Source: a virus. Taken from it: a DNA stretch of 21,840 nucleotides. The stretch is from the IMG/VR virus record IMGVR_UViG_3300020437_001549, positions 1-21,840 of that record. One strand, given 5' to 3'. Positions 1-16,238 of this stretch are shown in pieces. The notes under the pieces are model-generated. The model had not been told where the DNA came from, did not search any database, and saw only the letters and a program-made list of their open reading frames with translations. Both the position numbers and the translations under genes were made by a program. The number at the start of each line of letters is the position of its first letter. Within the stretch, counting starts at the first letter, position 1.

Positions 1-3000
1 CCAGCCGCTGGAAATGGTGATAACGGTATTCCAAATGAAGAAGAAACCATGTTCTTTTTAGATAGTGGTGTAATGATCGAAGGTTTATTACTGAAAGGTC
101 TAACAGGTTATCAAATTGGTACTCCAGGTGATCCAACAACAAGCACAGTTAAAGGTTGCTATTTAAGATTGAAACCTGGTGCAACAATACTTAAATCACC
201 ATATATCAAAGAATCAAGTGCATTTAGTACTGGTGCCGTAGGAGCAATTATTGATGGTTCAGTAGTTGCCGCAGGTACACCAGGCAGTATGGTATTTCAT
301 ACATTTACACAAGTACACGATGGTGGAATAGGTTTTTGGGTAAGCAACAACGGTTTAAGCGAGATTGTTTCTTGCTTTACTTACTATTGTGATTATGGAT
401 ACGCAACTACAGGCGGAGGTAAAATCCGTGCATTGAATGGTAATAACAGCTATGGTAGATATGGTGCCTTAAGTGCTGGTTATGATGCAAGTGAAGTTGC
501 GGCAACTGGATACATTTTTGGTGATACAATAAGATATACAGCAAGCACACTGAATACTTCAGACGGATTTACAGTTGGAGATACACTTACTTACGGTAGT
601 GCAAATACAGACACAGCACCATTTACGGCTGTAAGTATTGATCCACAAATGAAAATTACAACACAACTAGATGCTACTGTAACAGGAATCACAGCCGCAA
701 ATCCGGGTGTAGTGACAGCTACAGCTCATGGATTTGCAACAGGACAATCTATTAGTTTTGCTAACGTTGCCGGAATGACAGAAGTAAACGGAAATGCTTA
801 CACAATCACAGTGATTGATGCAGACAGTTTTAGTATTGTAGATACTACAACATTTACTGCATATACAAGCGGTGGTACAGCTACATTGGGCGGAGTGCAT
901 GGATTATCTGACGGTGATATGGTTGCATTCAAAGATGTTCTTCCAAGTGCATGGGCACTAACACTAGGTAGTCATGGCACTACAAATGTTTACAACAGAA
1001 CTTGGTATGTTGATGTTATAGATACAACAAGTTTTAAGGTTTGTACCAACCCTGATTTAACAAATTATTTTGACAGTAGTAGTATTAATGGATGGAGTAC
1101 ACAGACAGAAACAATTAGTGATGCTACAAGAGCCAATCCAGTTGTTGTTACAATGACAGGACATGGATATACAAATGGACAACTAATAAAAAATATTAAT
1201 GGTGTTGTTGGTATGACAGAACTAAATGGAAATGATTATTATGCCAACAATGTTACAGCAAATACAGTTGAACTTTACAGTGATGCTGGACTTACAACTA
1301 CAGTAGATGGAACAGGATTCTCTGCATATGTAAGTGGTGGTACAGCAAGTAGATTGGTCACAGGTACATCGTTTAGTACAGGTAAAATGATTAAAATTTT
1401 ACAAACACAATCTAAAATTGCAAATATTCAAACAAACATTCAACCAAGCACAGAACATAGACTTGTTGTAAATGAAACTGTAAAAGGATACACAGGAAAA
1501 ACAATCAAAGTATCAGTTAGAAACAGTGGTGCTGGTAATAGATATCTTTTCGATGGTGAAGAACTAGGATCACAAGAACTAGATACAAAACATAGATTAT
1601 ATATATTCGAACAAAATGATGACAGTAATGACAACCATCCGCTTTACTTTAGCGAAACACAAGATGGTATACATGGGGGTGGAACAGAATATGCTCCAGC
1701 CAAAGATGCCGCAACTGGTTTGTCAGGAAATGCAGTTGAATATTATTTAGATGGTGTTAAGCAAGCATCATTGGCTGATTATAATACAGGATTTAATGCC
1801 GCAACTGCAAGAGAGGTATGGGTTGTAGGAGCCGCACCAGCAAGTGCAAAACTTTATGCAGTATGTTATAATCACTCAGGTATGGGTGGTGGACAAGGTT
1901 ACACATCCTCAAATGCCGTGTATGCACCAACAACAGGTATTTTAGAAATTACAATTGGTTCACATAATTTACAAGTGGGCGATAATATAGAAATTTTACA
2001 AGACAGTATGAGATTTACTTGTGCTCAGGACAGTCATGCGACCAATCACGATTATCCAAGAAGCTCTGATCCTGCAAAAGCAAGTGTATTTGTGAAAATA
2101 CTGCAAAGAACTTCTACTACAGTCACAGTCAATGTTGGTATAAGCAGTAATGTTACAGATCACATCTATACAGGAACACCAATTACAAATAATATACAAA
2201 CAGCAACAAGTGATAAACCAACTATTGTGTATAGAACAACTACACAACACAGTACAGATAGTGCTTATTGGGAAAGATTTAGCGGAATGTATAGAACTGA
2301 ACTGGTCACAGCTGGTAGTACAATTACCGCACAAGATGGTCAGAGTGCTACTGTAGCCAATGTAAATGGTAGCAAAGGTCAATATGGTTTTAGTCTTGTC
2401 CTTGCAGGACTATCTGAAGTACCAAGAGCAGGTGCAAGTATTGAATTTGTAACAGGACCAACATATTCACCAATAGACAACGCTGATATCGGTGCAACGC
2501 AAAATACAGGTTTAGACACAGTAAGTTATATTGTATCTAATGTTACTGGATATATTGCAAGTAGTGATCCTACAATATTAGGTACAGCAACAGTTACTAT
2601 AGCCACTGAAAAACCAGTCACAAGTGATACATATTATGGACAGATGTTTAGATTACGATACAAGTATAGTCAAACACGATTAACTGGTCATGACTTCTTG
2701 AGTATAGGTACTGGCGGTAGGGCAACAACCAACTATCCAGGAGAGCCTACACAACCACCTGCTCAAGGACAAGAAGTAACAGAGACATATCCAGGTCGTG
2801 TTTATTATGTTAGCACAGACCAAGATGGTAACTTTAGAGTTGGTAACTATTTTAGAGTTGACCAATCAACTGGTAGAGCTACATTAGATGCAAGTGCATT
2901 TGATTTAAGTGGTTTGACAAGTTTGAGATTGGGTAGTATTGGTGCTCAGCTAGGTGAAAGTATTAACGAATTTAGTAGTGACGGAACACTTGCAGGTAAC

Positions 3001-3303
3001 AGTAATACAGCGGTGCCAACTGAACAAGCTGTAAAAACTTATGTTGATACACAAACACAGACAGCAATCGCGGCGGCGAACAATGCTAGATTATCAGCAC
3101 CGTTTGATAGTAGTAATGTAACAAGAAATGCATCTGGACAACTTACTGCGGCAGTAAATGAAACAGTAACATATTCAAACATTGCTTACAATTCAGATAA
3201 TAATATTACAGGTTACGATGAATTATCACAAACAGGTACGCAAAAATCAATTGCCGCAACTTATGATAGTGACGGTAAAGTATTGACAGTTACGGTAACA
3301 TAA
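1..3303 (+). CDS. Large phage tail-fibre/baseplate-associated structural protein (5' end outside window)
   Basis: The reading frame is open from base 1, upstream of the first ATG at 49, so the gene enters from the left and 1,100 codons are visible. Composition is that of a virion fibre: rich in Thr, Ser, Gly and Asn, poor in Cys, with many short beta-type segments. Two internal repeats of the 'ANPxVVTxTxHGxxxGQ...GMTExNGN...YxSGGTA' type (visible residues about 225-296 and 371-452) resemble the FCCH-like beta repeats common in phage tail proteins. The segment from about residue 931 (PGRVYYVSTDQDGNFRVG, then a T/S-rich stretch ending TEQAVKTYVD) matches a C-terminal module I know from structural proteins of marine T4-like phages. 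The last 80 residues are low complexity. Two fibre-like genes follow at once on the same strand. Role inferred: receptor-facing fibre or wedge-fibre connector. A specific T4 gene number cannot be assigned. Confidence 0.8.
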   Translation, partial: PAAGNGDNGIPNEEETMFFLDSGVMIEGLLLKGLTGYQIGTPGDPTTSTVKGCYLRLKPGATILKSPYIKESSAFSTGAVGAIIDGSVVAAGTPGSMVFHTFTQVHDGGIGFWVSNNGLSEIVSCFTYYCDYGYATTGGGKIRALNGNNSYGRYGALSAGYDASEVAATGYIFGDTIRYTASTLNTSDGFTVGDTLTYGSANTDTAPFTAVSIDPQMKITTQLDATVTGITAANPGVVTATAHGFATGQSISFANVAGMTEVNGNAYTITVIDADSFSIVDTTTFTAYTSGGTATLGGVHGLSDGDMVAFKDVLPSAWALTLGSHGTTNVYNRTWYVDVIDTTSFKVCTNPDLTNYFDSSSINGWSTQTETISDATRANPVVVTMTGHGYTNGQLIKNINGVVGMTELNGNDYYANNVTANTVELYSDAGLTTTVDGTGFSAYVSGGTASRLVTGTSFSTGKMIKILQTQSKIANIQTNIQPSTEHRLVVNETVKGYTGKTIKVSVRNSGAGNRYLFDGEELGSQELDTKHRLYIFEQNDDSNDNHPLYFSETQDGIHGGGTEYAPAKDAATGLSGNAVEYYLDGVKQASLADYNTGFNAATAREVWVVGAAPASAKLYAVCYNHSGMGGGQGYTSSNAVYAPTTGILEITIGSHNLQVGDNIEILQDSMRFTCAQDSHATNHDYPRSSDPAKASVFVKILQRTSTTVTVNVGISSNVTDHIYTGTPITNNIQTATSDKPTIVYRTTTQHSTDSAYWERFSGMYRTELVTAGSTITAQDGQSATVANVNGSKGQYGFSLVLAGLSEVPRAGASIEFVTGPTYSPIDNADIGATQNTGLDTVSYIVSNVTGYIASSDPTILGTATVTIATEKPVTSDTYYGQMFRLRYKYSQTRLTGHDFLSIGTGGRATTNYPGEPTQPPAQGQEVTETYPGRVYYVSTDQDGNFRVGNYFRVDQSTGRATLDASAFDLSGLTSLRLGSIGAQLGESINEFSSDGTLAGNSNTAVPTEQAVKTYVDTQTQTAIAAANNARLSAPFDSSNVTRNASGQLTAAVNETVTYSNIAYNSDNNITGYDELSQTGTQKSIAATYDSDGKVLTVTVT

Positions 3304-3326: not shown

Positions 3327-4763
3327 ATGGCAGATATACTAGTACATAATGCAATTAAAGATGTTCAGCAAGCTATTAATGAAGGTACAACCAATATTAT
3401 ATACAAGCCAATACTTGGCTCTGAACTTTATGATTATGTCAAAGCAATAATTGATGCAAACAAAACTACTGGTCCTTATAATACCGGTGGAGGCGGTTCA
3501 GCAACTCAGCCAATAAGTGATCTTTCATGCTCAGAAAAAATATCATTATGTACATGTAGTTTCTCTGGATCAGGAACAAGTTGTACATCTCATTGTATGG
3601 GTGGACAAGGTGTTTGGAGAGATGGTACAGTGTTACCAGGTAATCCAGGTGGAGCATCACAAACACCAGCACAAATCAGAGCGGCAATATTAACTAAAGA
3701 AGCTTCAGTGAATGGAATTAAATTACTGGATTCAATGTATGGAGCAGATAACACTAATGTACAAAATGATATAATATTAGTCTATTGGAGACTATTAAAA
3801 TTTTATACAGATGCCGCTGATACACAGGTTTTACAATTTTGGTATGGAGTAGGTGGTAGTTTCCCACAGGGATCTAGAATCAGTAATTCAAACTATCTCA
3901 AAGTATGTGGTGGCAGTTGGAGAAGCGGAGAAGGTGCAACATGTACATGGACTGTACCAGCTGGAGCAACTTGTGCCAGATTTCAGGTATGGGGAGCAGG
4001 CATGGGATCTAATCCAGGTTGTTGCTGTGGAGGTTCCAATGGAGGTTCTCATGGAGCATATGCAGAAATGACAATAAAGGTTACACCCGGAGATCAGTAT
4101 GTAATGTGTGCCGGATGTTCTTGTTCAATAATGTGTTGTTCAAATGTAACTCCAGGATACGGTTGTATGTCAGGTGTAACAGGAAATGGTATATGTTGTT
4201 TGAAAGCAGACGGTGAATTTTGTTACAATGGAAACTGTTATAATCTAAGTTGTACAAGAGTCAAAAGTGGACATGCTGGTGCATCATGTTGGTATTGGGG
4301 AAGTACTTATTGTACAAACTCAGGACATTGTTGGTGTAGTTACAGTGAATATTGTGCAGTAGGTTGTAGCACATGTGGGGTAGTAGAAGTTTATCCAAAT
4401 TGTTGGACTGATGGTGGAGGACAGTTTTGTAACTGTGCAACTACGGCATGTGTAATAACAGACGGTGGTTGCTACGGACACAGAGGATTATATGGTGGAG
4501 GTTGTACTGACACAAACCATTACGGATATCATGTTAGAGCACCAGTAATTGATGCAGATACAGGACGGATGTTTGCAGATAATCAAGGTTGTTTCTGTTT
4601 TTACTTTACAAGTGGAAGTTGTTGTGGCGGAACACTTGCAACTGGGTGGACAAAGCATCCAGGAATGGGCGGAACAGCTACACACGTTATGGGCGGAGCC
4701 AATCAGTTTTATGGTGAATACGGAACTGGAGGAATGGTACAAGTATCATGGGTAACAAGTTAA
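3327..4763 (+). CDS. Cysteine-rich adhesin-like virion protein (paralogue 1)
   Basis: 478 aa. No family name can be given with certainty. Residues 1-55 (MADILVHNAI...DANKTTGPY) form a short helical N-terminus shared with the next gene, plausibly a virion attachment or trimer module. From about residue 205 there is a TWTVPAGAT...FQVWGAG motif typical of glycine-rich phage adhesin domains, but many of the expected glycines are replaced by cysteine: PGCCCGG, CAGCSC, MCCSN, GICC, CWC and SCCGG. I count 39 Cys (about 8%), 34 of them after residue 190. No signal peptide or membrane helix is visible. An AGGAATAGG ribosome-binding region precedes the ATG. The gene lies between a large fibre gene and its own paralogue. 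Inferred role: distal tail adhesin whose tip is stabilised by disulfides or bound metal. Confidence 0.75.
   Translation: MADILVHNAIKDVQQAINEGTTNIIYKPILGSELYDYVKAIIDANKTTGPYNTGGGGSATQPISDLSCSEKISLCTCSFSGSGTSCTSHCMGGQGVWRDGTVLPGNPGGASQTPAQIRAAILTKEASVNGIKLLDSMYGADNTNVQNDIILVYWRLLKFYTDAADTQVLQFWYGVGGSFPQGSRISNSNYLKVCGGSWRSGEGATCTWTVPAGATCARFQVWGAGMGSNPGCCCGGSNGGSHGAYAEMTIKVTPGDQYVMCAGCSCSIMCCSNVTPGYGCMSGVTGNGICCLKADGEFCYNGNCYNLSCTRVKSGHAGASCWYWGSTYCTNSGHCWCSYSEYCAVGCSTCGVVEVYPNCWTDGGGQFCNCATTACVITDGGCYGHRGLYGGGCTDTNHYGYHVRAPVIDADTGRMFADNQGCFCFYFTSGSCCGGTLATGWTKHPGMGGTATHVMGGANQFYGEYGTGGMVQVSWVTS
4161..4192 (+). repeat. 32-bp exact direct repeat, copy 1
   Basis: This 32-bp stretch, encoding the GCMSGVTGNG region of the first Cys-rich protein, is identical to 5595-5626 in the second. 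A second shared block of 21 bp encodes PGCCCGG (4014-4034 and 5448-5468). The flanking DNA is clearly diverged, so these are islands of identity between paralogues. Confidence 0.85.
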
Positions 4764-4787
4764 ATAAAATAAAGGAATGGATCAAAA

Positions 4788-6197
4788 ATGGCTGATATTC
4801 TAGTACAAAATGCAATAGACAAAGTTGCTTCAGCGGTTGCCGGCGGAGCAGGAAAGATTGATTATAGAACAGTCTTTAACGGACTCAGCATGAAGCAAAA
4901 AGTAAAAGAAATTATCGATGCCAATCCAGGAACAGGACCTTATCAAGTTGGATCAGGTAGCGCCAAGCTATGTGATTTAACTGATCATTGTTACATGTCT
5001 TTGTGTGTATGTCCTTATGCTGGAAGTGGAACTGCATGTGGTTCTGTATACATCGGAAATGGCAGTAATAAATGGACAGACGGTACAATATTAGGCACAG
5101 GTGGTAGTACACCAAGTGTATCTGATATTAGAACTGCGATCACAAACTTAGATAAAACTATTGAAGCTGTGTATGACATAAGCAACACAGTGGTTCAAAG
5201 AGACATATACTACGCATATTTAGAATTGAGGGCAGATTATTATGCAGGTAACAATACTACTCTAAAACAAGAATGGTATGGTATTGAATTACCAGCTACT
5301 CCAGGACAACCATTAAGTCAAACAAATAGAACTAAAGTTTGCGGTACTAATTGGAAATGTGGGGAAGGTGCAACGTGTACATGGACTGTTCCGGTTGGAG
5401 CCTCCCAAGCAAAATTCCAGGCATGGGGAGCAGGTCAAGGAACCAACCCAGGTTGTTGCTGTGGAGGTGCTAATTTTGGTTTTAACGGCGCATATTCAGA
5501 AATAACAATTAAGGTTACACCAGGAGATCAATATACAATTTGTGCAGGATGCGCCTGTTGTAGATGGTGTTGTAGTAATAACCCCCCAAGTTATGGTTGT
5601 ATGTCAGGTGTAACAGGAAATGGTATTTGTTGCTTTAAAGCGGATGGAGCCTATTGTGAACATCAAGAATGTCATAGTCAAAACTGGCTAAGAGTCAATA
5701 GTAGTGCTCCAGGTATGCCAGGCTCCTCATGTCGTAGACATCAAAACCCATATTGTACAACTTCAGGATCATGTTATTGTAGCTATGGTGGTTGGTGCTT
5801 TAGTAACAGTTGCTCAACATGTGGAGTTTATCCAATAATGATTGACTGTTGTAACTATATCACTTATTGTAGTTGTGCCACTACAGCTTGTAAAGTCGTA
5901 GATGGAGTAGACAATGGATTCAGAGGCATGGGCGGTGGAACATGCTATGATACTAATAACTATGGATGGTACACAAGACCACCACATCTAGATGCAGATA
6001 CAGGGTTGCATTTCGGATGTCAAGTTGGTTGTTCATGTGCGTCTGTATCAAGTAACTGTTGTTGTGGAGGATGTAACGGAACAGGTTGGACATGGCATCC
6101 AGGATTTGGTGGTGCATATACACATACAATGGGTGGTAATAATACTCACAAAGGTGATGTAGGTAAAGCAGGAATGGTTATTGTATCTTGGAACTAA
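4788..6197 (+). CDS. Cysteine-rich adhesin-like virion protein (paralogue 2)
   Basis: 469 aa, a tandem paralogue of the preceding gene. Both proteins share the MADILVxNAI N-terminus, the IIDANxxTGPY segment, the CTWTVPxGA...FQxWGAG core, PGCCCGG, IKVTPGDQY, the GCMSGVTGNGICC block and a C-terminal half full of Cys motifs. I count 42 Cys in 469 residues (about 9%), including CRWCCSN, CSTCG and NCCCGGC. The central 80-190 region, which lacks Cys, is the most diverged between the two. A 24-nt gap separates the genes, with an AAGGAATGG ribosome-binding region before the ATG. Inferred role: a second host-range adhesin produced by duplication, possibly co-assembled with the first. Cys may serve disulfides or metal sites; the sequence alone cannot decide. 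Confidence 0.75.
   Translation: MADILVQNAIDKVASAVAGGAGKIDYRTVFNGLSMKQKVKEIIDANPGTGPYQVGSGSAKLCDLTDHCYMSLCVCPYAGSGTACGSVYIGNGSNKWTDGTILGTGGSTPSVSDIRTAITNLDKTIEAVYDISNTVVQRDIYYAYLELRADYYAGNNTTLKQEWYGIELPATPGQPLSQTNRTKVCGTNWKCGEGATCTWTVPVGASQAKFQAWGAGQGTNPGCCCGGANFGFNGAYSEITIKVTPGDQYTICAGCACCRWCCSNNPPSYGCMSGVTGNGICCFKADGAYCEHQECHSQNWLRVNSSAPGMPGSSCRRHQNPYCTTSGSCYCSYGGWCFSNSCSTCGVYPIMIDCCNYITYCSCATTACKVVDGVDNGFRGMGGGTCYDTNNYGWYTRPPHLDADTGLHFGCQVGCSCASVSSNCCCGGCNGTGWTWHPGFGGAYTHTMGGNNTHKGDVGKAGMVIVSWN
5595..5626 (+). repeat. 32-bp exact direct repeat, copy 2
   Basis: Identical to 4161-4192 in the neighbouring paralogue. See that entry for the companion 21-bp block. Confidence 0.85.
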
Positions 6198-6234: not shown

Positions 6235-6978
6235 ATGGCAGATGTAGAAATTAAATACACATTCAAAATACCAGATGAACCATATATAGATGATTTCTCT
6301 GGCGGAAAAACCAAAGAGTTCACCTATATCGGGCCTGATGTGTTGAAAGTAACTTGTCCAAACGATAACAATGGATATACTTCACCTTATACACAAAAAT
6401 TAGACGGACCTGTATATGATGGCGAACTATTAGTAGAAATAGATGTAAATGCAAATCCTGAATTGTTACCTATTGCAGATTTATTTTGGGGTAGACAATA
6501 TGATGCTGAAGCTACTTTTGACGAAGTAACACTAGATGATGGAACAGTATATCAAGAACAAAATAACATGACAATACATGATTACTATTGGAAACCAAGA
6601 GGTGAATTAAATGAAGATGGATCATTTAAAGGTTGGATTTTAGACGATGATAATGTACCTGTCTTAGAATTATTCCTAAGAGATCCTCTAACTCCTAAAC
6701 AGAGGACATATCTTGGAAAAGCTGATATGTTTCTTGAAATTTTAAATCAATTTGCATTAGAAAGTTCTGAAGCTACTCTACTTGAAAATTACAAAACTGA
6801 AGTAGAAGCATATAGATCAAAAGTTGCATTACCTTGGAAATACCCAGGAATAAATCCAGTGGATCTTGAAGCACCTAAAATTCCTATGCAGTTGGTCGCA
6901 CAGCACAATGCAATTAAATCAGCTAATTTGGATGCAATGCAGTCAGAAGATGTTGCTGAAGGTCCAATACCAGAGTAA
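6235..6978 (+). CDS. Hypothetical acidic phage protein, likely structural or fibre-associated
   Basis: 247 aa, strongly acidic, with no Cys-rich region, signal peptide or membrane helix. I do not recognise a named domain. The N-terminal 100 residues look beta-rich (VEIKYTFKIPDEPY, GELLVEIDVNANPE). The middle (about 150-195) is helical. The C-terminus carries LPWKYPGINPVDLEAPKIP, a Pro-rich segment I associate with uncharacterised structural genes of marine T4-like phages. It starts with ATG after AAGGAAAAT, 37 nt behind the second Cys-rich adhesin, and is the last gene of the plus-strand fibre block. It could be a fibre-assembly factor for the two adhesins or a minor virion protein; position alone supports this. 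Confidence 0.6.
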   Translation: MADVEIKYTFKIPDEPYIDDFSGGKTKEFTYIGPDVLKVTCPNDNNGYTSPYTQKLDGPVYDGELLVEIDVNANPELLPIADLFWGRQYDAEATFDEVTLDDGTVYQEQNNMTIHDYYWKPRGELNEDGSFKGWILDDDNVPVLELFLRDPLTPKQRTYLGKADMFLEILNQFALESSEATLLENYKTEVEAYRSKVALPWKYPGINPVDLEAPKIPMQLVAQHNAIKSANLDAMQSEDVAEGPIPE

Positions 6979-7029: not shown

Positions 7030-7064
7030 ATATAATTATGTATTCATAAAAATTGGAGCAAATT

Positions 7065-8105
7065 TTGTCAAAGAAAAAAGCCTTTTTTATTAATGGAGGT
7101 GCAGGTAGAGTTTTATGTGCTATTCCTGCTCTCGAATACTATAAACAAAATACAGACGATTCTGTAGTTATAGTAGCAGAAGGATGGCATGAACTGTTTT
7201 TTGCAAGTGCAATTCTCAGAGAAAATGTATATCCTGTTGGACATAAAAATTTGTTCCAACATCAATTAAAAGATAGAGAAATTGTAAGTCCTGAACCATA
7301 CAGACTTAATGCATATTTCAATCAACAATGTAACATGATTCAAGCATTTGACATGCTTATAAATGGAAACACAGAAGAGATACCTAAAACAAAGTCAATG
7401 GAATTAAGCATTTCTAGAAATGATCAAGCATTTGGGTATAATACAATAAAACAAATCAAACAATCAGTAGGAAAAGAAAAAGCTGTTGTCTTTCAACCTC
7501 TCGGAAGCGGTGCAAAGATAAATGGTGAATTCTTAATTGATGAAAGTGGTAGAAGTATTGAACTTAATGATATAATAACAATAGTAAAAGAACTTTCAAA
7601 ACATTATGCTGTCATTATGATGACTAATGTAAATATACCAGCACAAGAGGCGATGGGTGCGGCTATACCACAAGCAAATCTATTGCAATGGATGGGTATT
7701 GTGAAAGCATGTGATTACTTTTTAGGTTGTGATAGTATGGGACAACACTATGCTCATGCTTTAGGAAAACCAGCTACAGTAATAATAGGTTCAACTTTTC
7801 CTGAAAATATAAGTTATCCAAATACTAAAAATTTTACTATCATTGATAACGGAAAGGATAAAGGCAGACTCTACAATCCTTTTAGAATTACAATGGATTT
7901 TGATTCAGAAAGAGCAAACGAAGATGCTATGGTAATGAATGAGTCACAAGTAAAAGATGTGATAAAAACTGTAACAAATAAATTAGGGCTTACAAAACAA
8001 CCTAAAGAAGACGAACAGAAAAAAGAATTAGATTATATTCAAAAAGCCGTTAATAATTTAGGAAAAAAACAACAACCTTATGCAGTATTAAATCAGAATA
8101 AGTGA
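7065..8105 (+). CDS. Glycosyltransferase family 9 (ADP-heptosyltransferase-like)
   Basis: 346 aa from the TTG at 7065. An earlier in-frame TTG at 7053 overlaps the GGAG ribosome-binding site (7055-7058), which is ideally spaced for 7065, so the later start is preferred. Features are those of the heptosyltransferase (GT-B, GT9) fold. An N-terminal FFINGGAGRVLCAIPAL segment (residues 7-23) resembles the first loop. A second Rossmann half starts near VVFQPLGSGAK, and GCDSMGQHYAHALGKP (221-236) corresponds to the GT9 DTGPMHLAAALG-P nucleotide-sugar motif. The family transfers L- or D-glycero-heptose from ADP-heptose to LPS core or other acceptors. ADP-heptose genes (hldE, hldD) lie 4-5 kb downstream, which supports this donor. 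The carbamoyltransferase starts 7 nt after the stop. The acceptor (host LPS, virion glycan or DNA) is unknown. Confidence 0.75.
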   Translation: MSKKKAFFINGGAGRVLCAIPALEYYKQNTDDSVVIVAEGWHELFFASAILRENVYPVGHKNLFQHQLKDREIVSPEPYRLNAYFNQQCNMIQAFDMLINGNTEEIPKTKSMELSISRNDQAFGYNTIKQIKQSVGKEKAVVFQPLGSGAKINGEFLIDESGRSIELNDIITIVKELSKHYAVIMMTNVNIPAQEAMGAAIPQANLLQWMGIVKACDYFLGCDSMGQHYAHALGKPATVIIGSTFPENISYPNTKNFTIIDNGKDKGRLYNPFRITMDFDSERANEDAMVMNESQVKDVIKTVTNKLGLTKQPKEDEQKKELDYIQKAVNNLGKKQQPYAVLNQNK

Positions 8106-8112
8106 GGAAATA

Positions 8113-9948
8113 ATGGAAAAAACAGGCTATATTTTAGCTATAGCAAGAGGCCATAATGCTGGGGCCTGTTTGCTTAAAGATGGAAAAATAGTTTTCAGCA
8201 TCGAAGAAGAACGTTTAAGCAGAAGAAAGTATGATGGTGGTCCTTATGCGGCTATGGTCAAAACATTAGAATACACTGATAAAGTTGATAATATTGTAGT
8301 AGCACATACTCAATCAATACATGAAACTGGTGCTTTAACAGACTTTACAGGTGACGATGTTTATTCAGCTTTGGGTAGAAAACTAGGATTGATTGATCAA
8401 AATGTTCAATATACAATGGGACAAATGCATGACCAATTAATAGATTTATCTGTAATACATCATAAACTTCATGCCAGTTGTGCATTTTATAGAAGTGGTT
8501 TTGACGAAGCAGTTGCACTAATAGTAGATGGTGCTGGTACATTCTATCCTCTTAATAATTCAGAAGGAACTGTTAAACTTACTGGTTTTGAAGTTGAAAG
8601 TATTTTTAGGTGTAGTTATCCTGCTAATATCGAAACATTGTATAAACACATGGGAACAACAGATGTAAAAGAACATTTTCAAGGTCCTATTACTATAACT
8701 GACCCGCTTATTGGACCTGAAACTTTTGATACTGTAATTTCTGATCGTCCTGGTATTGTAAAAGTTTACGAAGCAGTAACATCTTATTGTGGTTTTAATG
8801 CCATTGAAGCAGGTAAAACAATGGGATTATTTCCGTATGGAAAACCAAATGAGAATATACCAAAATTATTTGATGATTATGGTCTAGATTCTTTTGCAAA
8901 TAGAAATTTAATTATACCTAACTATCCAAACGGCGCATTTGTAAATTATCAAATATATCCAGAATTACAAACTTCTGCTGATCAATTTGCAACACAAGAT
9001 GTGACTACATTACAAAATAGAAGAGATCTGGCATATGCATTACAAACCCAAACACAAGAAGAAATGGTAAAACTAATAAGAAAAGCTGTAGAAGTGGGTG
9101 GTTCAAAAAATGTGGTTATAAGTGGAGGTTATGGATTAAATTGTGTTGCAAACTATCATTATTTAGAAGCACTTAAAGATGATGATATCAATATCTATGT
9201 AGAGCCAGTTAGTAATGATGCTGGTACTGCCATGGGTGCAGGACTATATTTTTATCATACAAATACTGAGTCTATGGAAAAAACTCCATCTAGTTTGTAT
9301 TTGGGTCCTAAATACAATTATTCTGATGATGTAATTAATCAAACTGCTAGCAAGTATAATGCCACAGTAGAAGATTGTGATAATACTAGAGTTGTTGATT
9401 TACTTGTTGAAAGAAACATTGTAAGTATATTCCAAGGACGTTGTGAAAATGGACCTAGAGCATTAGGTAACAGAAGTATACTTTACGACCCAACAGACCC
9501 TAACGGAAAAGATCATGTAAACACTGTAAAAAGAAGAGAATATTTTAGACCTTTTGCAGGCACAATTCTTGCAGAAGATGTACATGAATGGTTTGATTTA
9601 AGAGGTATGAATGATAGTCCTCACATGATGTATGCAGTCAATTGTCAACCTGGTGTGAAAGAAAAGATACCTGCTATTATACATGTTGATGACACATGTA
9701 GAATACAAACTGTAACTTATGAAGAAAATCCTAATTATTATGATTTGATTAATGAATGGAAAACTAGGACAGGCATTCCGATTATTTTTAATACCAGCTT
9801 TAACTTAGGTGGAGAACCTTTGGTTGAAGATTTGAAAGATGCACTATGGACATTGCAACAAAGTGATATTGAATATTTGTATTTGCCAGAGTATAAAAAG
9901 TTATTGACAATTAAGAATGAACCTCAGGAAATAGACAATCCTGTATAA
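8113..9948 (+). CDS. O-carbamoyltransferase (NodU/CmcH/TobZ family)
   Basis: 611 aa, normal full length for the family. The enzyme uses carbamoyl phosphate and ATP to form carbamoyl-AMP, then carbamoylates a hydroxyl group on a sugar or similar acceptor. The Kae1/YrdC-like domains are recognisable: GHNAGACLLKDGKI (13-26) with EEERLSRRKYDG, the metal-binding HHKLHAS (116-122), VDGAGT (138-143), GGYGLNC (338-344), QGRCENGPRALGNRS (441-455), REYFRPFAG and FNTSFNLGGEPLV (559-571). The start is ATG after GAGGAAATA, 7 nt behind the GT9 gene, so the two form an operon. Carbamoyltransferases are frequent in marine T4-like phages, but their acceptors are mostly unknown. Pairing with a heptosyltransferase-like enzyme suggests carbamoylation of a phage-added sugar. 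The 3' end overlaps the convergent bilin reductase gene by 38 bp. Confidence 0.9.
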   Translation: MEKTGYILAIARGHNAGACLLKDGKIVFSIEEERLSRRKYDGGPYAAMVKTLEYTDKVDNIVVAHTQSIHETGALTDFTGDDVYSALGRKLGLIDQNVQYTMGQMHDQLIDLSVIHHKLHASCAFYRSGFDEAVALIVDGAGTFYPLNNSEGTVKLTGFEVESIFRCSYPANIETLYKHMGTTDVKEHFQGPITITDPLIGPETFDTVISDRPGIVKVYEAVTSYCGFNAIEAGKTMGLFPYGKPNENIPKLFDDYGLDSFANRNLIIPNYPNGAFVNYQIYPELQTSADQFATQDVTTLQNRRDLAYALQTQTQEEMVKLIRKAVEVGGSKNVVISGGYGLNCVANYHYLEALKDDDINIYVEPVSNDAGTAMGAGLYFYHTNTESMEKTPSSLYLGPKYNYSDDVINQTASKYNATVEDCDNTRVVDLLVERNIVSIFQGRCENGPRALGNRSILYDPTDPNGKDHVNTVKRREYFRPFAGTILAEDVHEWFDLRGMNDSPHMMYAVNCQPGVKEKIPAIIHVDDTCRIQTVTYEENPNYYDLINEWKTRTGIPIIFNTSFNLGGEPLVEDLKDALWTLQQSDIEYLYLPEYKKLLTIKNEPQEIDNPV

Positions 9949-10588
9949 AATGTTTTACATCTTTTGGATCAAGTCCTAAAGACTCCATAACTTTTGGTGT
10001 ATGAGGATTTTGTTTTTGATAATGACAATATCTATTTTGCTGATCCTTAATTAAGGCAGTATTGTAATTAGTGTTAGTATATTTTGGTAATTCTTCAAAA
10101 TACATGTCTAAATTATCAAGTGCAATTTCTACAACTTGATCCATTTCTTCACTTGTGTTAACATTTCCTACTGCAATCATGTGTCCAGAAAATATTGCTT
10201 TTGCCCAATCAGGCAATTCTCTTTCTTTACGCCATTCTAAATTTTGTACACAATCTCTAAACAGATTACACATAGGATGATTCCAATCTATGGTTGGTGA
10301 ATAGTCATGGAAAGCACCAGTAACTTTCTTTTTACCTGCAATAATATCAAATCCGTATATAGGTGCATCGTTATCAAAGTTTGGAAATACACAAATATGA
10401 GTCATATACAAACCTTTTGTAGCTCTGGCATCAACACTATCAATATGAGCTCGTCTAAAATGCTCTCCTTTAAATACTCGATTGAGCCAATCAAACTCTG
10501 GATCATCGAATTGTTCCACTCCTAAACTAGCACATTTTTCAATTATCTTTTGTTCACATGCTATAAGTTTATCCCATATTTCACTCAT
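9911..10588 (-). CDS. pcyX: Ferredoxin-dependent bilin reductase, PcyX-like
   Basis: 225 aa, the usual size of phage bilin reductases. The family (PcyA, PebA, PebB, PebS, PcyX, HY2) reduces biliverdin IXalpha with electrons from ferredoxin. PcyX, described from marine phages, gives phycoerythrobilin (recalled knowledge). Matching features are [17 protein letters not shown] (about 67-83, the central beta-sheet core), [11 protein letters not shown] with Asp95 at the place of the conserved proton-donor Asp of PcyA/PebS, and a C-terminal [15 protein letters not shown]...VMESLG segment where Asp182 may match the second catalytic Asp of PebS. It resembles PcyA/PcyX more than PebS in the core. The start (ATG at 10588) overlaps the hemA stop as ATGA and is preceded by AGAGGAAG, so translation is coupled to hemA. 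Haem oxygenase, which would supply biliverdin, is not in the window. The product chromophore cannot be proven from sequence. Confidence 0.82.
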
Positions 10589-11769
10589 ATTACTTCCTCT
10601 AATCTTTCTGCAAGATCTGAAATCATCGCGTTGCTATGCATTGGTGTTGGCGCAAATCTTAAACGTTCAGTGCCTTGTGGTACTGTTGGATAGTTAATAG
10701 GTTGTACATAAATGTTGTGATCATTTAGTAATGTGTCACTGATTTGTTTACAACGTACTGCATTTCCTATTAGTACTGGTACAATATGTGTTTCGTTTTC
10801 AATCATATTAATATTCTTATGTCTGAATATTTTCTTTAGTCTATTAGCACGATTTTGATGTTGTTGTCTTAGTTCAACGCCATGTTCACTACGCAAATAT
10901 TTTATACTGCTTAATGCACCTGCACATATTACTGGACTCATACTTGTGGTAAAAATAAAACCACTTGCTACACTTCTAATTGCATCCATAGCCACATCAT
11001 CACCAGAGACATATCCACCTTGACAACCAAAGGCTTTGCCTAATGTACCATTTATAAAATCTACTTGATCTTGTAATCCTTGAAGTTCAAGATAACCTGC
11101 ACCTGTATCACCATATAGTCCAACAGCATGTACTTCATCGCAATAGGTTATAGCATGGTATTCTTTTGCAAGATCAATTATTTCCTTAGCTTTGCTTGTA
11201 TATCCATCCATACTATAGATACTCTCAAAAACAATGCAAGCTGTACCTTCTACTTTTGCTAGTGCTTGTTCTAAACTATCCATGTCATTGTGTTCAAATA
11301 TATGTTTTGGTGCACCACTATGTCTAATACCTTGAATAAGACTTGCATGATTTTTATTATCACTTACAAATTCTATATCTGGCAGTATTTTGCTAAGTGC
11401 AATTAGTGTCCATTCGTTGGCTACATAAGCACTGGAGTATAACAAAGACGACGGTTTGTTGTGTAATTTCGACAGTTCGTATTCTAAGGCAACATGATAA
11501 TGGCTAGTACCTCCTATGTTTCTAGTCCCACCACTGCCTGCACCTGTTTGATCCAGTGCAGTATGCATTGCGTCTAACACAACTTTGTGTTGACCCATAC
11601 CCAAGTAATCGTTGCTACACCAATTGATAATATTTTTAATATTGTAAGGACCGTAGTAAATTGCTTGTGGATATTCTCCACGTTCTCTGAGTATGTCATT
11701 GAATACTCTATAATTACCACTACCTTTTAGATTGGTTATTACGTTCTGAAATCTGTCTTTGTCTATCAT
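10585..11769 (-). CDS. hemA: 5-aminolevulinate synthase (Shemin pathway)
   Basis: 394 aa, close to the alphaproteobacterial enzyme in length and alignable from end to end from memory. It is a PLP enzyme condensing glycine and succinyl-CoA to 5-aminolevulinate, the first committed step of haem synthesis in alphaproteobacteria. ALAS-type signatures are GNYRVF with Arg21, [12 protein letters not shown] (50-61), [13 protein letters not shown] (76-88), [10 protein letters not shown] with cofactor-stacking His141, [10 protein letters not shown] with Asp211 and His214, [14 protein letters not shown] with the Schiff-base Lys245, [20 protein letters not shown] with Arg369. GTRNI and the last block separate it from 2-amino-3-ketobutyrate CoA ligase and AONS (BioF). 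All catalytic residues I can check are intact. The 5' end overlaps the upstream small ORF by about 50 bp and there is no strong ribosome-binding site, so initiation may depend on translation of that ORF. The 3' end overlaps pcyX by 4 bp. Confidence 0.95.
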
Positions 11770-11910: not shown

Positions 11911-11918
11911 TATTTATA
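11911..11918 (-). promoter_or_regulatory. T4-late promoter octamer TATAAATA for hemA-pcyX
   Basis: Read on the minus strand this is a perfect TATAAATA, the T4 late promoter consensus recognised by phage-modified RNA polymerase. With the octamer at -13 to -6, the start point falls on 11905, the A of the ATG of the small ORF. There is no sigma70-like -35 on this strand at a fitting distance. Confidence 0.6.
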
Positions 11919-11925
11919 GTTAATC

Positions 11926-11954
11926 TTGACATGATAAAATTTTTACTATATAAT
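11926..11954 (+). promoter_or_regulatory. Perfect consensus sigma70 promoter for the hld operon
   Basis: TTGACA (11926-11931), exactly 17 bp of spacer, then TATAAT (11949-11954). Both boxes match the bacterial consensus fully. The expected start near 11961 leaves a leader of about 15 nt holding AGGAG (11965-11969), 6 nt before the ATG of hldD. The -10 lies in a 10-bp palindrome TATAATTATA. This implies strong transcription by unmodified host polymerase, so early in infection. It lies 7 bp from the divergent late octamer. Confidence 0.8.
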
Positions 11955-11975: not shown

Positions 11976-12845
11976 ATGCATATCGTCACGGGTGCGGCTG
12001 GATTTGTAGGCAGTAATTTAGTTGCACATTTAAACAAACAAGGACACACTGATGTGTTGTTGGTGGATACTTTGTCAATGAATAAGACAAAAAACCTAGC
12101 AGGATTAATTTTTGAAGACTTTATTAATCCTAGTGAACTATTAGAAATCAACATAGACAAAAGTGATGTTGTATGGCATATGGGTGCTAACAGTAGTACA
12201 AAAGAAACTGACTGGAATAAAATATATTCTAGTAATGTAGACTTTACAAGACAACTTGTAAGTAAATGTAACACAATGGTTTTTGCTAGCAGTGCCAGTG
12301 TGTATGGAGATAATGTAACTACACAAGAGCATCCAATCAACGAAGCTCCAAAAAATTTATATGCAAGTAGTAAATTAATCTGCGATAATATTTTTAGGAA
12401 CACTGTTGGTTGTAAAATACACAGTTGGAGATTCTTTAATGTATACGGAAACAGAGAAAGTCATAAGCAAGCTATAGGCATGGGAAGTCCTTATACAAAT
12501 TTTGTTAAACAAGCAAAAGATACAGGTGTGATTAAGATATTTGAAGGTAGTGACAAAGTTCAACGTGACTTTGTTTGTGTAGAAGATGTTGTTGATATAA
12601 TGTATGATTGTCTACAACATGATGAAAGTTTTATATGTAATCTTGGCACAGGAACAACATATACTTTTGAGTATTGGGCAAAACTAATTGCAAGTCATTA
12701 TAATGCAGTTATAGAACATATTCCAGTGCCTGATGATTTGAAAGGCATTTATCAAATGTACACTTGTAGTAATAATGATAAACTTAACACACTTATCAAT
12801 TATGATTTTACATCTCCAGAAGAATTTGTTGAGGCTAATTTGTGA
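11976..12845 (+). CDS. hldD: ADP-L-glycero-D-manno-heptose-6-epimerase
   Basis: 289 aa, slightly shorter than the bacterial enzyme (about 310). A short-chain dehydrogenase/epimerase that converts ADP-D-glycero- to ADP-L-glycero-beta-D-manno-heptose. It has the N-terminal Rossmann loop TGAAGFVGSN (5-14), ASSASVYG with the catalytic-region Ser106, YxxxK as Tyr129/Lys133 (LYASSKLI), RFFNVYGNRESHK, FEGSDKVQRDFVCVEDVV, NLGTG, and IPVPDDLKGIYQMYTCS. The last block and FEGS...RDFV are specific to HldD among sugar epimerases. The start has a strong AGGAG site and consensus promoter just upstream. The stop overlaps the GTG start of hldE (GTGA), so the two are translationally coupled. GmhA and GmhB, which are also needed for the pathway, are not in the window and may come from the host. 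Confidence 0.9.
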   Translation: MHIVTGAAGFVGSNLVAHLNKQGHTDVLLVDTLSMNKTKNLAGLIFEDFINPSELLEINIDKSDVVWHMGANSSTKETDWNKIYSSNVDFTRQLVSKCNTMVFASSASVYGDNVTTQEHPINEAPKNLYASSKLICDNIFRNTVGCKIHSWRFFNVYGNRESHKQAIGMGSPYTNFVKQAKDTGVIKIFEGSDKVQRDFVCVEDVVDIMYDCLQHDESFICNLGTGTTYTFEYWAKLIASHYNAVIEHIPVPDDLKGIYQMYTCSNNDKLNTLINYDFTSPEEFVEANL

Positions 12846-14002
12846 TTGTAGTAATTGGTGATATTATTATAGATGAATATGTGTATGGTACAAGCACACG
12901 CCTTAGTCCAGAAGCACCAGTGCCTGTTGTAAAACACGAAAAGACAGAACGTAAGCTGGGCGGTGCAGGAAATGTTTACAATAACATAAAAAGCCTTACA
13001 GATGATGTAACACTCATTGGTTATAGAAATGACACTACGGATTGGCCCGTAGAACTGTTTTGTACACACATGCCACTAAAGCAAAGAATTTATGCTGACA
13101 AACATTATATTACTAGAATTGATAGAGAACAAACAATCGACAATAGCACATTGTTTGATTATGTAAAGCAACGTGTTCATAATTGTACAGTGGTCATAAG
13201 TGATTATAACAAAGGTACAATACAAGATCCGCAACGTTTAATAAAGATACTAAAAGGTAATGGCTGTTATGTAATTGTTGATCCCAAACAACATTTGGAT
13301 TTGTATACAGGTGCTGATGTAATCAAACCAAATAAAAAAGAATACGAAGAATACAATAATGGTGTAAAGACAAATATGGTTGTAACAATGGGTGCAGATG
13401 GCTACATGATAAATGGCAAACATTATCCAACACAACAAAAGGAAGTATATGATGTCACAGGAGCAGGTGATACATTTTTAGCAGTGATGTCATACTTTTT
13501 AGACTTTGGCGAAAGTTTAGAGTTTGCTTGTGAAATGGCTAACAAAGGTGCTGGTGTTAGTGTACAACACAATGGGGTATATGTGGTTCATTGGAAAGAC
13601 TTAGATCCTCGTCCTACAGTTGTGTTTACAAATGGTTGTTTTGATTTATTACACAGAGGACATGTGGAAATGCTCAAAGCAAGTAAGGCACTCGGAGAGC
13701 ATCTTGTAGTAGGATTAAATACTGATGCTAGTGTTAAGAGATTAAAAGGTGATACTAGACCAATCAATAACGAAACAGATAGAAAAGTAGTGCTTGAGAG
13801 TTTAGATTTTGTCGATGAAGTTATTTTGTTTGATGAAGATACACCACAGCAACTAATAGAAAGAATACGCCCTGATATCATAACCAAAGGCGGCGACTAC
13901 ACTGTTGATACTGTAGTTGGTAATGAACTTGCAAAAGTTGTAATTATACCAACTGTAGAAAATCAAAGCACTACAAATACAATCAAAAGGATAGTATTAT
14001 GA
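12842..14002 (+). CDS. hldE: Bifunctional heptose-7-phosphate kinase / heptose-1-phosphate adenylyltransferase
   Basis: 386 aa from a GTG start that overlaps the hldD stop. Residues 1-252 form a PfkB/ribokinase-type kinase: GDIIIDEYVYGTSTRLSPEAPVPVV (6-30) is the HldE substrate signature, followed by KLGGAGNVYNN, SDYNKG, and DVTGAGDTF (204-212) with catalytic Asp210. Residues 258-386 form a nucleotidyltransferase: FTNGCFDLLHRGHVEML with the HxGH motif (271-274), VGLNTDASVKRLKGDTRPI and ITKGGDY. It would phosphorylate heptose-7-phosphate at C1 and, after dephosphorylation at C7, adenylylate it to ADP-heptose. E. coli HldE is about 477 aa with a kinase of about 318, so the phage kinase domain is about 60 residues shorter while its key motifs remain. 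The stop overlaps the cupin start (ATGA). Confidence 0.92.
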   Translation: MIVVIGDIIIDEYVYGTSTRLSPEAPVPVVKHEKTERKLGGAGNVYNNIKSLTDDVTLIGYRNDTTDWPVELFCTHMPLKQRIYADKHYITRIDREQTIDNSTLFDYVKQRVHNCTVVISDYNKGTIQDPQRLIKILKGNGCYVIVDPKQHLDLYTGADVIKPNKKEYEEYNNGVKTNMVVTMGADGYMINGKHYPTQQKEVYDVTGAGDTFLAVMSYFLDFGESLEFACEMANKGAGVSVQHNGVYVVHWKDLDPRPTVVFTNGCFDLLHRGHVEMLKASKALGEHLVVGLNTDASVKRLKGDTRPINNETDRKVVLESLDFVDEVILFDEDTPQQLIERIRPDIITKGGDYTVDTVVGNELAKVVIIPTVENQSTTNTIKRIVL

Positions 14003-14376
14003 CACAATTAAATGGTGTGCAAGAAAAAGGATGGGGTCGAGAATTAATTTGGGCTACCAACGAAAAATATTGTGGTAAACTAATGTTCTTTGATCGTAAA
14101 GGCTCTAAGTTTAGCTTGCATTTTCATAAAGAAAAAGATGAAAGTTGGTATGTACTTAAAGGAAGTTTTATGCTACACATACTTGATTGTAGCAATGCAG
14201 AAATGTCTAGTTCAGTTTTAAAAACAGGAGATACTTGGCGTAATTTGCCCATGTCACCTCATCAGTTAGTTGCAATGGAAGACGATAGTATTATAATAGA
14301 AGTCAGTACACCGGACAGTGTTGAAGATAATTTTCGTATTGCAAAAGGTGATAGCCAAAAGTCAAAAAGTGTCTAA
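13999..14376 (+). CDS. Cupin-domain protein, sugar-phosphate isomerase-like
   Basis: 125 aa, a single cupin barrel. The metal-binding motif is complete: HFHKEKDE gives His41, His43 and Glu48, and PHQ gives His88. The flanks (GWGRELIWATNEKYCGKLMFFDRKGSKFSLHFH) resemble the C-terminal domain of type II mannose-6-phosphate isomerases and the small cupins often found in LPS/heptose clusters. It is ATGA-coupled to hldE and is the last gene of the hldD-hldE operon, so a role in sugar-nucleotide or sugar-phosphate handling is likely. Whether it is an isomerase, epimerase or a binding protein cannot be told. Its 3' end overlaps the convergent Nudix gene by 15 bp. Confidence 0.8.
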   Translation: MTQLNGVQEKGWGRELIWATNEKYCGKLMFFDRKGSKFSLHFHKEKDESWYVLKGSFMLHILDCSNAEMSSSVLKTGDTWRNLPMSPHQLVAMEDDSIIIEVSTPDSVEDNFRIAKGDSQKSKSV

Positions 14377-14821: not shown

Positions 14822-15208
14822 TTATGAAGGTTCTGTTGGCCAAGTTACATCATCAAGTGATGTAGCTGACTCAGTTATATCTCTTAGGGCTTGTCTGTAT
14901 GTACGCCATTCATCTGTCATAGTAACGTCACTGTTAGCCATCCAATCACTAGTGGCAATTCTCATGTTGCGTTCTTCTCTTAATAAACGCATAGGCTCTC
15001 CAGCTTCAAGTTCATCTGCTTTTGCTTTTACATCTTCCCAAGTACAACCCCAATCGCTTTCTTTTGTGCTTTCTATTGCCATACCATTAGCGTCTTCACC
15101 TGTTACTTTGGCATACATTGTAGCAAATTCTTCTTTGGTTGTGGGTTGGCCTCTGAGTACCCAACCGTCTATGCCTAGTTCTGTTAATGCTTTTGCTATA
15201 TATGTCAT
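14822..15208 (-). CDS. Phage tail (fibre) assembly chaperone
   Basis: 128 aa from the ATG at 15208, which has AAAGGA upstream. A longer in-frame start exists at 15301 but would run into the preceding fibre gene. The C-terminal third, RLLREERNMRIATSDWMANSD...WRTYRQALRDI (residues 74-111), is the hallmark of phage tail assembly chaperones (RxxRdxxLxxtDW...YRQaLRDi). The N-terminal part is helical and acidic. It lies directly after the fibre-gene array, as expected for a protein assisting fibre folding or attachment. The host-encoded acceptor and exact partner are unknown. Confidence 0.8.
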   Translation of the reverse strand: MTYIAKALTELGIDGWVLRGQPTTKEEFATMYAKVTGEDANGMAIESTKESDWGCTWEDVKAKADELEAGEPMRLLREERNMRIATSDWMANSDVTMTDEWRTYRQALRDITESATSLDDVTWPTEPS

Positions 15209-15222
15209 TTGTTGTTCCTTTG

Positions 15223-15726
15223 TTATCCTATAAAATTCATTTGCCAATACGTGTGGAATGTATTTGGTTGTATAATTACTTGAGATGCATTGAACACCCA
15301 CATTTGTATTTCATCACCGGCACTAAATCGTTTAGTAATTGCACCTTGATTCATATTAGAAACACCATTGTCAGTGCCTATTGCATCTTCTCTTGTACCA
15401 TTTACATTTACTGCTATTTGATTAGGGTTATTACTAGATGAATAAACATGACAACTAATAAACCATAGACCACCTAGTCCAGAAGGTATAGTATATGTAT
15501 TTGTTGATGTATTAAAAGCACTCATATTATCTTCTGGATCAAACACAAGTGAATTGTTAAAAGAATCAAATGGAACTTTTCCTGAACCAGCAGATATAGT
15601 AGCCGCTGAACTTAATCCAACTTTTAACATTGGAATTATGTTTTTAGTAATTATTCCATCGCTTCTAATCGCGATTGCATTAGTACCGTTTGTGTGTTGA
15701 ATGTTTTCTACTTTTAATGTACTCAT
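15223..15726 (-). CDS. Fibre-like virion protein, cassette 4
   Basis: 167 aa from the ATG at 15726. This start overlaps the previous stop as ATGA and gives the MSTLKVENIQ N-terminus shared with its neighbours; the longer frame to 15825 is ignored. The N-terminal 30-40 residues look like an attachment module. The rest is beta-rich (TISAGSGKVPFDSFNNS, NTYTIPSGLGGLWFISCHVY, QIAVNVNGTRED, GDEIQMWVFNAS), which fits a C1q/TNF-like receptor-binding jelly-roll domain. It lies directly before the assembly chaperone, suggesting it is the distal or last-assembled fibre piece. Confidence 0.72.
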   Translation of the reverse strand: MSTLKVENIQHTNGTNAIAIRSDGIITKNIIPMLKVGLSSAATISAGSGKVPFDSFNNSLVFDPEDNMSAFNTSTNTYTIPSGLGGLWFISCHVYSSSNNPNQIAVNVNGTREDAIGTDNGVSNMNQGAITKRFSAGDEIQMWVFNASQVIIQPNTFHTYWQMNFIG

Positions 15727-16238
15727 TGTGCAATCTCCGTTAAAATCATAGTTGACGTTGGAGTAACATTTCCATTTGAAGGTGCTTGATTCCAATAAAG
15801 AGGATGACCAGCATTTTGTGTCCATCCATATATTGAATATGTAATTTGATTTGTGCTACCAGCTGATTCAGTAAAATTCCAAGTCCAGATAGGACAATAC
15901 CAAAAACCTCTACTGCCAGCGGCGACAAATCCAGATCCAGTATGAGCGGCATTTCTTACCACTATCATTTGATTATGCAAAGATCCATTTTTTGCTAGTT
16001 GAATATATCCATCATAATAATCATGATGAACTGCATACCAATTTACTTGTACATGTATTAGACTGGTTGAAAATTTTGGAGTTATGCTTGTTCCACTCCA
16101 CATTTGTACTGCTGATGTTGAAGTTGTACTACTAGCTGTACTATATTCTCCAGTAACAGTTTGTATTGGATGTCCTGGAATCTTTACACCAGCATTGGTT
16201 GTTTTTTCAATGATGTTATTTACGCTGAGTGTACTCAT
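15723..16238 (-). CDS. Fibre-like virion protein, cassette 3
   Basis: 171 aa from the ATG at 16238 (ATGA overlap with the upstream gene). It has a conserved N-terminus MSTLSVNNIIEKT...VKIPGHPIQTV and ends in LTEIAQ, as cassette 2 ends in VMEIAQ. The middle is Ser/Thr-rich and beta-type with many Trp and Tyr (FWYCPIWTWNFTESAG), typical of a fibre tip. Paralogous to cassette 2: both contain SxSxxxMxxxxGxSxTPKxSTS-like segments after the IPGH motif. Confidence 0.72.
   Translation of the reverse strand: MSTLSVNNIIEKTTNAGVKIPGHPIQTVTGEYSTASSTTSTSAVQMWSGTSITPKFSTSLIHVQVNWYAVHHDYYDGYIQLAKNGSLHNQMIVVRNAAHTGSGFVAAGSRGFWYCPIWTWNFTESAGSTNQITYSIYGWTQNAGHPLYWNQAPSNGNVTPTSTMILTEIAQ

Follow-up and report, generated by a model that had tools for sequence, protein, structure and literature searches.

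Two neighbouring genes of unusual cysteine content, here termed A and B, were studied in the viral record IMGVR_UViG_3300020437_001549 (positions 1 to 21,840; this whole stretch of 21,840 nucleotides is referred to as the window). They are located between a tail-fibre gene and genes for a chaperone-like protein, a glycosyltransferase-like enzyme and a carbamoyltransferase:

1-3303, plus strand: upstream tail-fibre gene, open at the 5' end of the window (phrog_9851 tail fiber protein, E=5e-141)
3327-4763, plus strand: Cys-rich adhesin A, 478 amino acids, 39 Cys (8.2%) (phrog_35878, E=3.5e-26)
3327-3884, plus strand: N-terminal helical part of A, residues 1-186, probable docking region (AlphaFold2 (AF2) secondary structure and predicted local distance difference test (pLDDT))
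3885-4112, with the last strand at 4722-4760, plus strand: tumour necrosis factor (TNF)-like beta-sandwich part of A, residues 187-262 (VIA alignment to 7ypx_A)
4113-4721, plus strand: glycine-rich insert of A turned Cys-rich, residues 263-465 (13.3% Cys, 18.2% Gly)
4788-6197, plus strand: Cys-rich adhesin B, 469 amino acids, 42 Cys (9.0%) (phrog_35878, E=6e-32), 51% identical to A
6235-6978, plus strand: tail-fibre-assembly-chaperone-like gene (TYxGPD family), a neighbour of the Cys-rich genes at 72 of 84 loci
7053-8105, plus strand: GT9/heptosyltransferase-like glycosyltransferase (GT) of the phrog_8954 family (E=1e-129; PF01075 E=2e-4, 21.1 bits, slightly short of the cut-off of 22)
8113-9948, plus strand: NodU-family carbamoyltransferase (PF16861, E=4e-58; PF02543; phrog_1601)

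A sequence-only reading of the window had described A and B as paralogues with 8-9% Cys. Both open reading frames (ORFs) were recovered at exactly these positions, and the identity between the two paralogous products extends along their length. Chance can be excluded as the source of the Cys richness because the other ORFs of the loci average about 1% Cys (527 ORFs, length-weighted mean 1.0%); the binomial probability is 1e-22 for 39 Cys in 478 residues and 7e-26 for 42 in 469. The Cys residues of A are confined to a linker (residues 68-90, 5 Cys, within a low-confidence linker region spanning residues 61-110) and to the C-terminal domain (residues 194-433), and the helical N-terminal parts contain none. 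Lack of Cys conservation among homologues had been named as an observation that would speak against a special role. Across 74 relatives, Cys ranked first in conservation among the residue types of A (0.60 versus 0.54 for Gly), with C206 invariant and C233, C234, C261, C264, C270, C271, C337 and C343 conserved at 91-99%. The motifs CCCGG, CCSN, CxC and CxxC, also pointed out in that reading, are present. However, CxxC and CxC hardly exceed the frequency given by Cys content (family ratios of 1.15 and 1.21), and A contains 2 CxxC compared to 3.8 expected. Adjacent CC pairs are moderately enriched (1.46-fold).

Relatives were collected in IMG/VR scans (77 loci from the first alignment, 79 from the short class). 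They occur on more than 100 viral contigs, nearly always as pairs or triplets and mostly with 6-13% Cys; 277 matched stretches from later IMG/VR scans contained 8.3-13.9% Cys. Homologues are present in P-SSM2 and P-SSM5 (PSSM2_304 and PSSM2_306, 36 Cys each) and in AG-345 single-cell viruses, and a short form arranged in triplets is found in S-SSM7, S-SSM6a, Sf-FS3, S-CAM1 and S-CAM3. The tail-fibre gene keeps an equivalent upstream position in P-SSM2, S-SSM7 and S-CAM1. A tree of 77 domains largely kept first genes apart from second genes (6 label changes versus 26 in shuffles); therefore, most of the pairs are of old origin and their members are not redundant. Within the clade that includes the window, both copies are closer to each other, which results from later duplication or gene conversion. 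A scan of bacterial genomes returned the module at three loci (L114, L115, L116) on marine metagenome-assembled genome (MAG) contigs labelled Neomarinimicrobiota and Actinomycetota, which are probably phage sequence binned into MAGs.

The single-chain AF2 model of A had a mean pLDDT of 70.7, with values of 85-97 in blocks of ten for residues 181-260. Helices were predicted, at moderate confidence, for residues 4-18, 27-43 and 114-173, and no strand was predicted before residue 190. Residues 187-478 matched the Pam3 fibre 7ypx_A in Foldseek (E=1.3e-6) and in VIA (Z 12.6, root mean square deviation of 3.5 Å over 192 aligned residues). Additional VIA scores were Z 11.7 for the Pam3 fibre, Z 11.0 for the Bxb1 tail tip and Z 7-9 for ALK/LTK glycine-rich domains; the S16 gp38-type adhesin was not among the fold matches listed by either program. 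Sequence searches with A and with family profiles against the PDB gave no meaningful match. The Pfam model PF21722 (Gly_rich_2) was matched by 16 of the 24 members of the short class and by 8 of the 74 in the long class, which together with the fold match bears out the glycine-rich phage-adhesin scaffold proposed earlier. A and B themselves stayed below the curated cut-off of this model, and neither had a match in NCBIfam or, up to E=1, in Pfam. Cys-poor Gly_rich_2 paralogues (0-0.7% Cys) are present in genomes of the same set. As modelled, A belongs to the fold class of the Pam3 gp24-type fibre tip (TNF-like plus glycine-rich), and A and B would be two non-identical receptor-binding tips of the tail fibre through which the host is bound.

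The protein encoded at 6235-6978 was modelled with confidence (pLDDT 90.8), with beta structure in its N-terminal part and helices in its C-terminal part. Nine of 51 members of its family matched the phage tail assembly chaperone model PF16778 (best 2.8e-11) and 10 matched phrog_4912, one of the tail-fibre-assembly PHROGs; the window protein itself matched neither PF16778 nor a tail-fibre-assembly family. Foldseek returned nothing at E<=0.001 for the model, VIA aligned it to 7ypx_a with Z 4.6, and the PDB search with the chaperone profile yielded no meaningful match. DnaK helical lids, the best VIA rows for this model, were taken to reflect a common helix arrangement. About half of the 12 loci (of 84) without the chaperone-like gene end at a Cys-rich gene. 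Judged by the example of Pam3 gp25, the product is probably a dedicated folding chaperone of the tips. A further Tfa-like ORF (TDEWRTYRQALRDI) is located at 14822-15301 on the minus strand, adjoining a fibre-like ORF (15223-15825, minus strand).

Cys richness tracks the GT9-like gene and not the fold, and the adjacent GT9-like gene is its strongest correlate. Both the GT9-like and the carbamoyltransferase gene were present in all 66 loci that extend 4 kb downstream. To avoid circularity, anchors independent of Cys (the chaperone and the GT9-like gene) were used for retrieval. All 24 loci found with the chaperone had Cys-rich neighbours, down to 25% chaperone identity. The GT9-like anchor gave 80 loci, which are those closest to the window and often overlap earlier contigs, so that the counts are not independent; a Cys-rich gene was located upstream in 61 of the 63 that reach far enough in this direction. 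Of the remaining two, L298 contains 22 Cys in the C-terminal part of an 1801-residue fibre. The other (L242) is a real exception, having the GT9-like and carbamoyltransferase genes duplicated and no Cys-rich tail gene in 6 kb upstream.

The slot upstream of the GT9-like gene is not tied to one domain type. A different Cys-rich domain (6-13% Cys) occupies it in L018, L221, L251, L253, L258 and L278, and in L018 this domain is fused to the N-terminal start (MSDVILYAALKEN) used by glycine-rich members. A single-cell virus, AG-345-O18, encodes there two proteins of 758 and 290 residues (L222:2027-5169; 9.6% and 10.7% Cys) that represent a further sequence type. In N4-like Vibrio phage SBP1 and Aeromonas phage HJ05, the GT9-like gene is the immediate neighbour of the protein in which Cys is most densely packed genome-wide (13 and 17 Cys in 150 residues), and it adjoins a stretch of 15 Cys in K479 and D505. 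This N4-like arrangement is located at the following positions:

L224:5742-8519, L223:3306-4985, and L406 and L407 from 5747: N4-like Vibrio/Aeromonas phages, GT9-like gene adjoining a tail protein with a Cys-dense segment (13-17 per 150 residues)

Further, whole genomes were ranked, with at least 12 Cys in 150 residues of a tail protein as the threshold. A Cys-dense tail protein lay next to the GT9-like gene in five of five GT9-positive genomes (P-SSM2, S-CAM1, S-CAM3, HJ05, SBP1) and was present in none of six GT9-negative ones from marine T4-like phages (P-SSM4, P-RSM4, S-SSM4, P-SSM7, ACG-2014j, Mosig), corresponding to a naive Fisher probability of 0.002 that ignores partial kinship, related cyanophages being included. 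Short minus-strand or frame-overlapping Cys-rich ORFs in S-CAM1 and S-CAM3 (e.g. S-CAM3 55005-55508, 12 Cys in 150 residues) are probably spurious.

Two other observations concern Cys-containing tail proteins. An apparently unrelated second Cys-rich tip domain (QYYCS..GCSSGC) is encoded at L018:7422-8159, L221:4618-5475, L253:4514-5401 and L278:4523-5422; it is accompanied by a small adjoining gene of its own in L018 and L221, and Cys-studded N-terminal repeats are also present in L253 and L278. GT9-negative cyanophages encode small His/Gly-rich proteins with 4-5% Cys (P-SSM7 50248-50826, P-RSM4 57022-57600, S-SSM4 31490-31981), possibly PAAR-like spike tips.

With respect to the sugar, 9 of 17 relatives of the window's GT9-like protein matched PF01075 (best 2e-6), and the sole PDB hits of the GT9-like profile were lipopolysaccharide (LPS) heptosyltransferases (weak, E 0.13-0.38). 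Two genes further downstream probably serve in donor-sugar supply:

11976-12845, plus strand: ADP-heptose 6-epimerase (HldD)-like gene (TIGR02197, 223 bits, under the cut-off of 274.6)
12842-14002, plus strand: HldE-like heptose-7-phosphate kinase/adenylyltransferase (PRK11316, 319.5 bits, under the cut-off of 521)

Such hld genes were present in all three GT-positive cyanophages checked and absent from the GT-negative phages, and also from HJ05 and SBP1. The Vibrio and Aeromonas hosts should produce ADP-heptose themselves, as they need it for LPS. The resemblance of the GT9-like profile, the HldE/HldD-like genes of the window and the distribution of hld genes among phages make ADP-heptose the probable donor. 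A perfect sigma-70 consensus (TTGACA-17-TATAAT; 11926-11954, plus strand) is located ahead of the HldD-like gene, and beside it, on the opposite strand, the window's sole T4-late-type TATAAATA (11911-11918, minus strand). The product of 13999-14376 is a homologue of P-SSM2 PSSM2_312 ("cysteine dioxygenase") and resembles WbuC-type cupins, weakly and below the cut-off; the annotation of PSSM2_312 as a cysteine dioxygenase is therefore doubtful.

Starting from what the computations establish, namely the fold class of A, the gene pairing, the chaperone link and the GT link across unrelated folds, we tentatively favour, at somewhat less than even confidence, that A and B are receptor-binding tips with S-glycosylated cysteines, possibly bearing carbamoylated heptose. 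Like Pam3 gp24, each tip would have helices for docking at its N-terminus, followed by a TNF-like sandwich and, distally, the glycine-rich domain. The Tfa-like chaperone (6235-6978) would fold A and B in the cytoplasm, while the HldE/HldD-like enzymes, or a heptose-making host, would provide ADP-heptose. The GT9-like enzyme (7053-8105) would then move the sugar, most likely heptose, onto thiols of the tip cysteines, where it would be capped by the carbamoyltransferase. Accepting sugar would be the main role of the cysteines, rather than binding metal or bilin. We infer the action of these enzymes on A and B and heptose as the sugar, and the association suggests cysteine as the acceptor. It is conceivable, though far from assured, that GT9-like enzymes S-glycosylate (heptosylate, sometimes followed by carbamoylation) dense tip Cys arrays in several unrelated phage groups, Cys richness being a fold-independent design for glycan attachment. 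Literature searches on Cys-rich phage tails or S-glycosylated tails found nothing on point, and cysteines have apparently not been described before as places of sugar attachment in tails.

Several points weigh against S-glycosylation of the tips, in addition to the dependence among counts and genomes noted above. No clear sequon was seen in the residues flanking Cys. A structural role is possible for several of the conserved Cys. The target of the GT could instead be Ser/Thr or something else, and the link of this enzyme to Cys could reflect inheritance of the tip cassette. An hld gene lies nearby in only 34 of 57 GT loci with enough sequence. Known BAHT enzymes bear an iron finger with four conserved Cys (PMC4358343), and inspection of the aligned GT9-like sequences revealed no CxxC...C...C insert of this type.

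The main rival, somewhat doubtful in our judgement, assumes the same tips but with disulfides that form once the cell has lysed. In seawater these would staple the glycine-rich lattice inside each subunit and perhaps also from one subunit to another. This rival accords with the extracellular location of the nearest eukaryotic fold relatives, the ALK/LTK glycine-rich domains, and with core Cys columns conserved at 91-100%; columns 290 and 370 co-change in four sister pairs, a borderline result at the 95% limit of shuffles. However, no clear parity preference is seen in the Cys totals, of which 43 are even and 31 are odd, and the difference in Cys number between sister proteins is odd as frequently as it is even. 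Disulfides also leave unexplained why the GT9-like link holds across folds, even where single Cys are spaced along repeat-like stretches.

Another idea is that the GT9-like enzyme and the carbamoyltransferase modify the host surface or another part of the virion, the tip being linked only by co-inheritance of the cassette. Cyanophage genes of such type have been described as LPS genes (PMC3037559), and many phages without Cys-rich genes also have carbamoyltransferases. We nevertheless regard this explanation as unlikely, given that the GT9-like gene accompanies Cys-dense tail proteins of different folds in unrelated phage groups. Binding of Zn, Fe or Cu by the cysteines, a thiolate version of the iron-in-tail-fibre idea, appears more unlikely still. 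The thiol density is high, some His is present, and HxH iron sites have been proposed for other marine phage tail fibres (PMC11705849); on the other hand, CxxC/CxC spacing is near the composition-only level, Cys positions and numbers vary among close relatives, and the richness is common to unrelated folds. A zinc-ribbon or Fe-S motif was rejected, CxxC not being over-represented.

The sequence-only reading had also, as a speculation, connected the cysteines with bilin or iron, in view of the following genes 4-6 kb away:

9911-11769, minus strand: bilin reductase and 5-aminolevulinate synthase (ALAS; TIGR01821, 545 bits, above the cut-off of 339)

A bilin bound covalently to tip Cys by a thioether is highly improbable: the module is linked to GT9 and carbamoyltransferase, and this reading is rejected because the two features dissociate both ways, Cys-rich genes occurring without the reductase in the complete 198-kb genome of S-CAM1 and on a contig of 250 kb, and the reductase without a Cys-rich tail protein in the six GT9-negative genomes listed above.

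The reductase of the window is closest to that of pelagiphage Mosig (48.5% identical). Unlike the cyanophage-like tip module, a sheath-like protein (17766-19169, minus strand) is closest to the jumbo phages Phosso (Sinorhizobium) and Atu_ph07 (Agrobacterium), at 36-37%. The synthase, the Mosig-like reductase and the affinity of the sheath therefore point to an alphaproteobacterial (ALAS-using) host and not to a cyanobacterium; hence, the tip module probably extends beyond cyanophages.

The choice of marine bacteria that a phage infects depends on its tail tips. In P-SSM2 and other reference cyanophages, the genes of the conserved module (Cys-rich tips, chaperone, GT9-like enzyme, carbamoyltransferase) bear no annotation beyond hypothetical or LPS; the module gives several orphan families a testable function. 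To our knowledge, the LPS of marine Synechococcus is free of heptose, and S-glycosylated tips would explain why cyanophages nevertheless carry heptose-synthesis genes. Glycosylation of the cysteines would be a novel type of modification for virions, and disulfide bonding would be an uncommon example of maturation after lysis.

Among known systems, the direct homologues are PSSM2_304 and PSSM2_306 of P-SSM2 (T4-GC 299/301; phrog_35878, phrog_4205), which have the same neighbourhood and 10.1% Cys and are annotated as hypothetical. They are shorter (355 residues), and the chaperone-like gene of P-SSM2 lies between both copies, whereas in the window it follows them. The Gly_rich_2 (PF21722) phage proteins are remote relatives; the window proteins miss the model, and the Cys-poor members of related genomes mark the difference in Cys content.

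In Pam3, gp24 combines a helical domain for docking with a TNF-like domain and with a glycine-rich one that recognises the receptor and contains 39% Gly (49 of 125 residues) (PMC9608196). Together with its chaperone gp25 (PDB 7ypx, 7yfw; PMC9608196) it shares with the window proteins the predicted TNF-like and glycine-rich distal domains, the helical N-terminus, and an adjoining chaperone gene whose product has a beta N-terminus and a helical C-terminus. In contrast to the distal region of A, that of gp24 is described without mention of cysteine (PMC9608196). Also unlike Pam3, two to three paralogues are present per genome here, and the chaperone-like protein of the window has no clear fold match to gp25 (VIA Z 4.6 over 73 residues of the helical part).

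Finally, TibC/AAH heptosylate bacterial adhesins (PMC4358343) and resemble the proposed system in that a heptosyltransferase with ADP-heptose as donor sugar-coats an adhesin, which makes them a model for a possible mode of action of the GT9-like enzyme. Their substrates are bacterial autotransporters and they carry the iron-finger Cys motif, whereas the GT of the window lacks that motif and would use cysteine as its acceptor.

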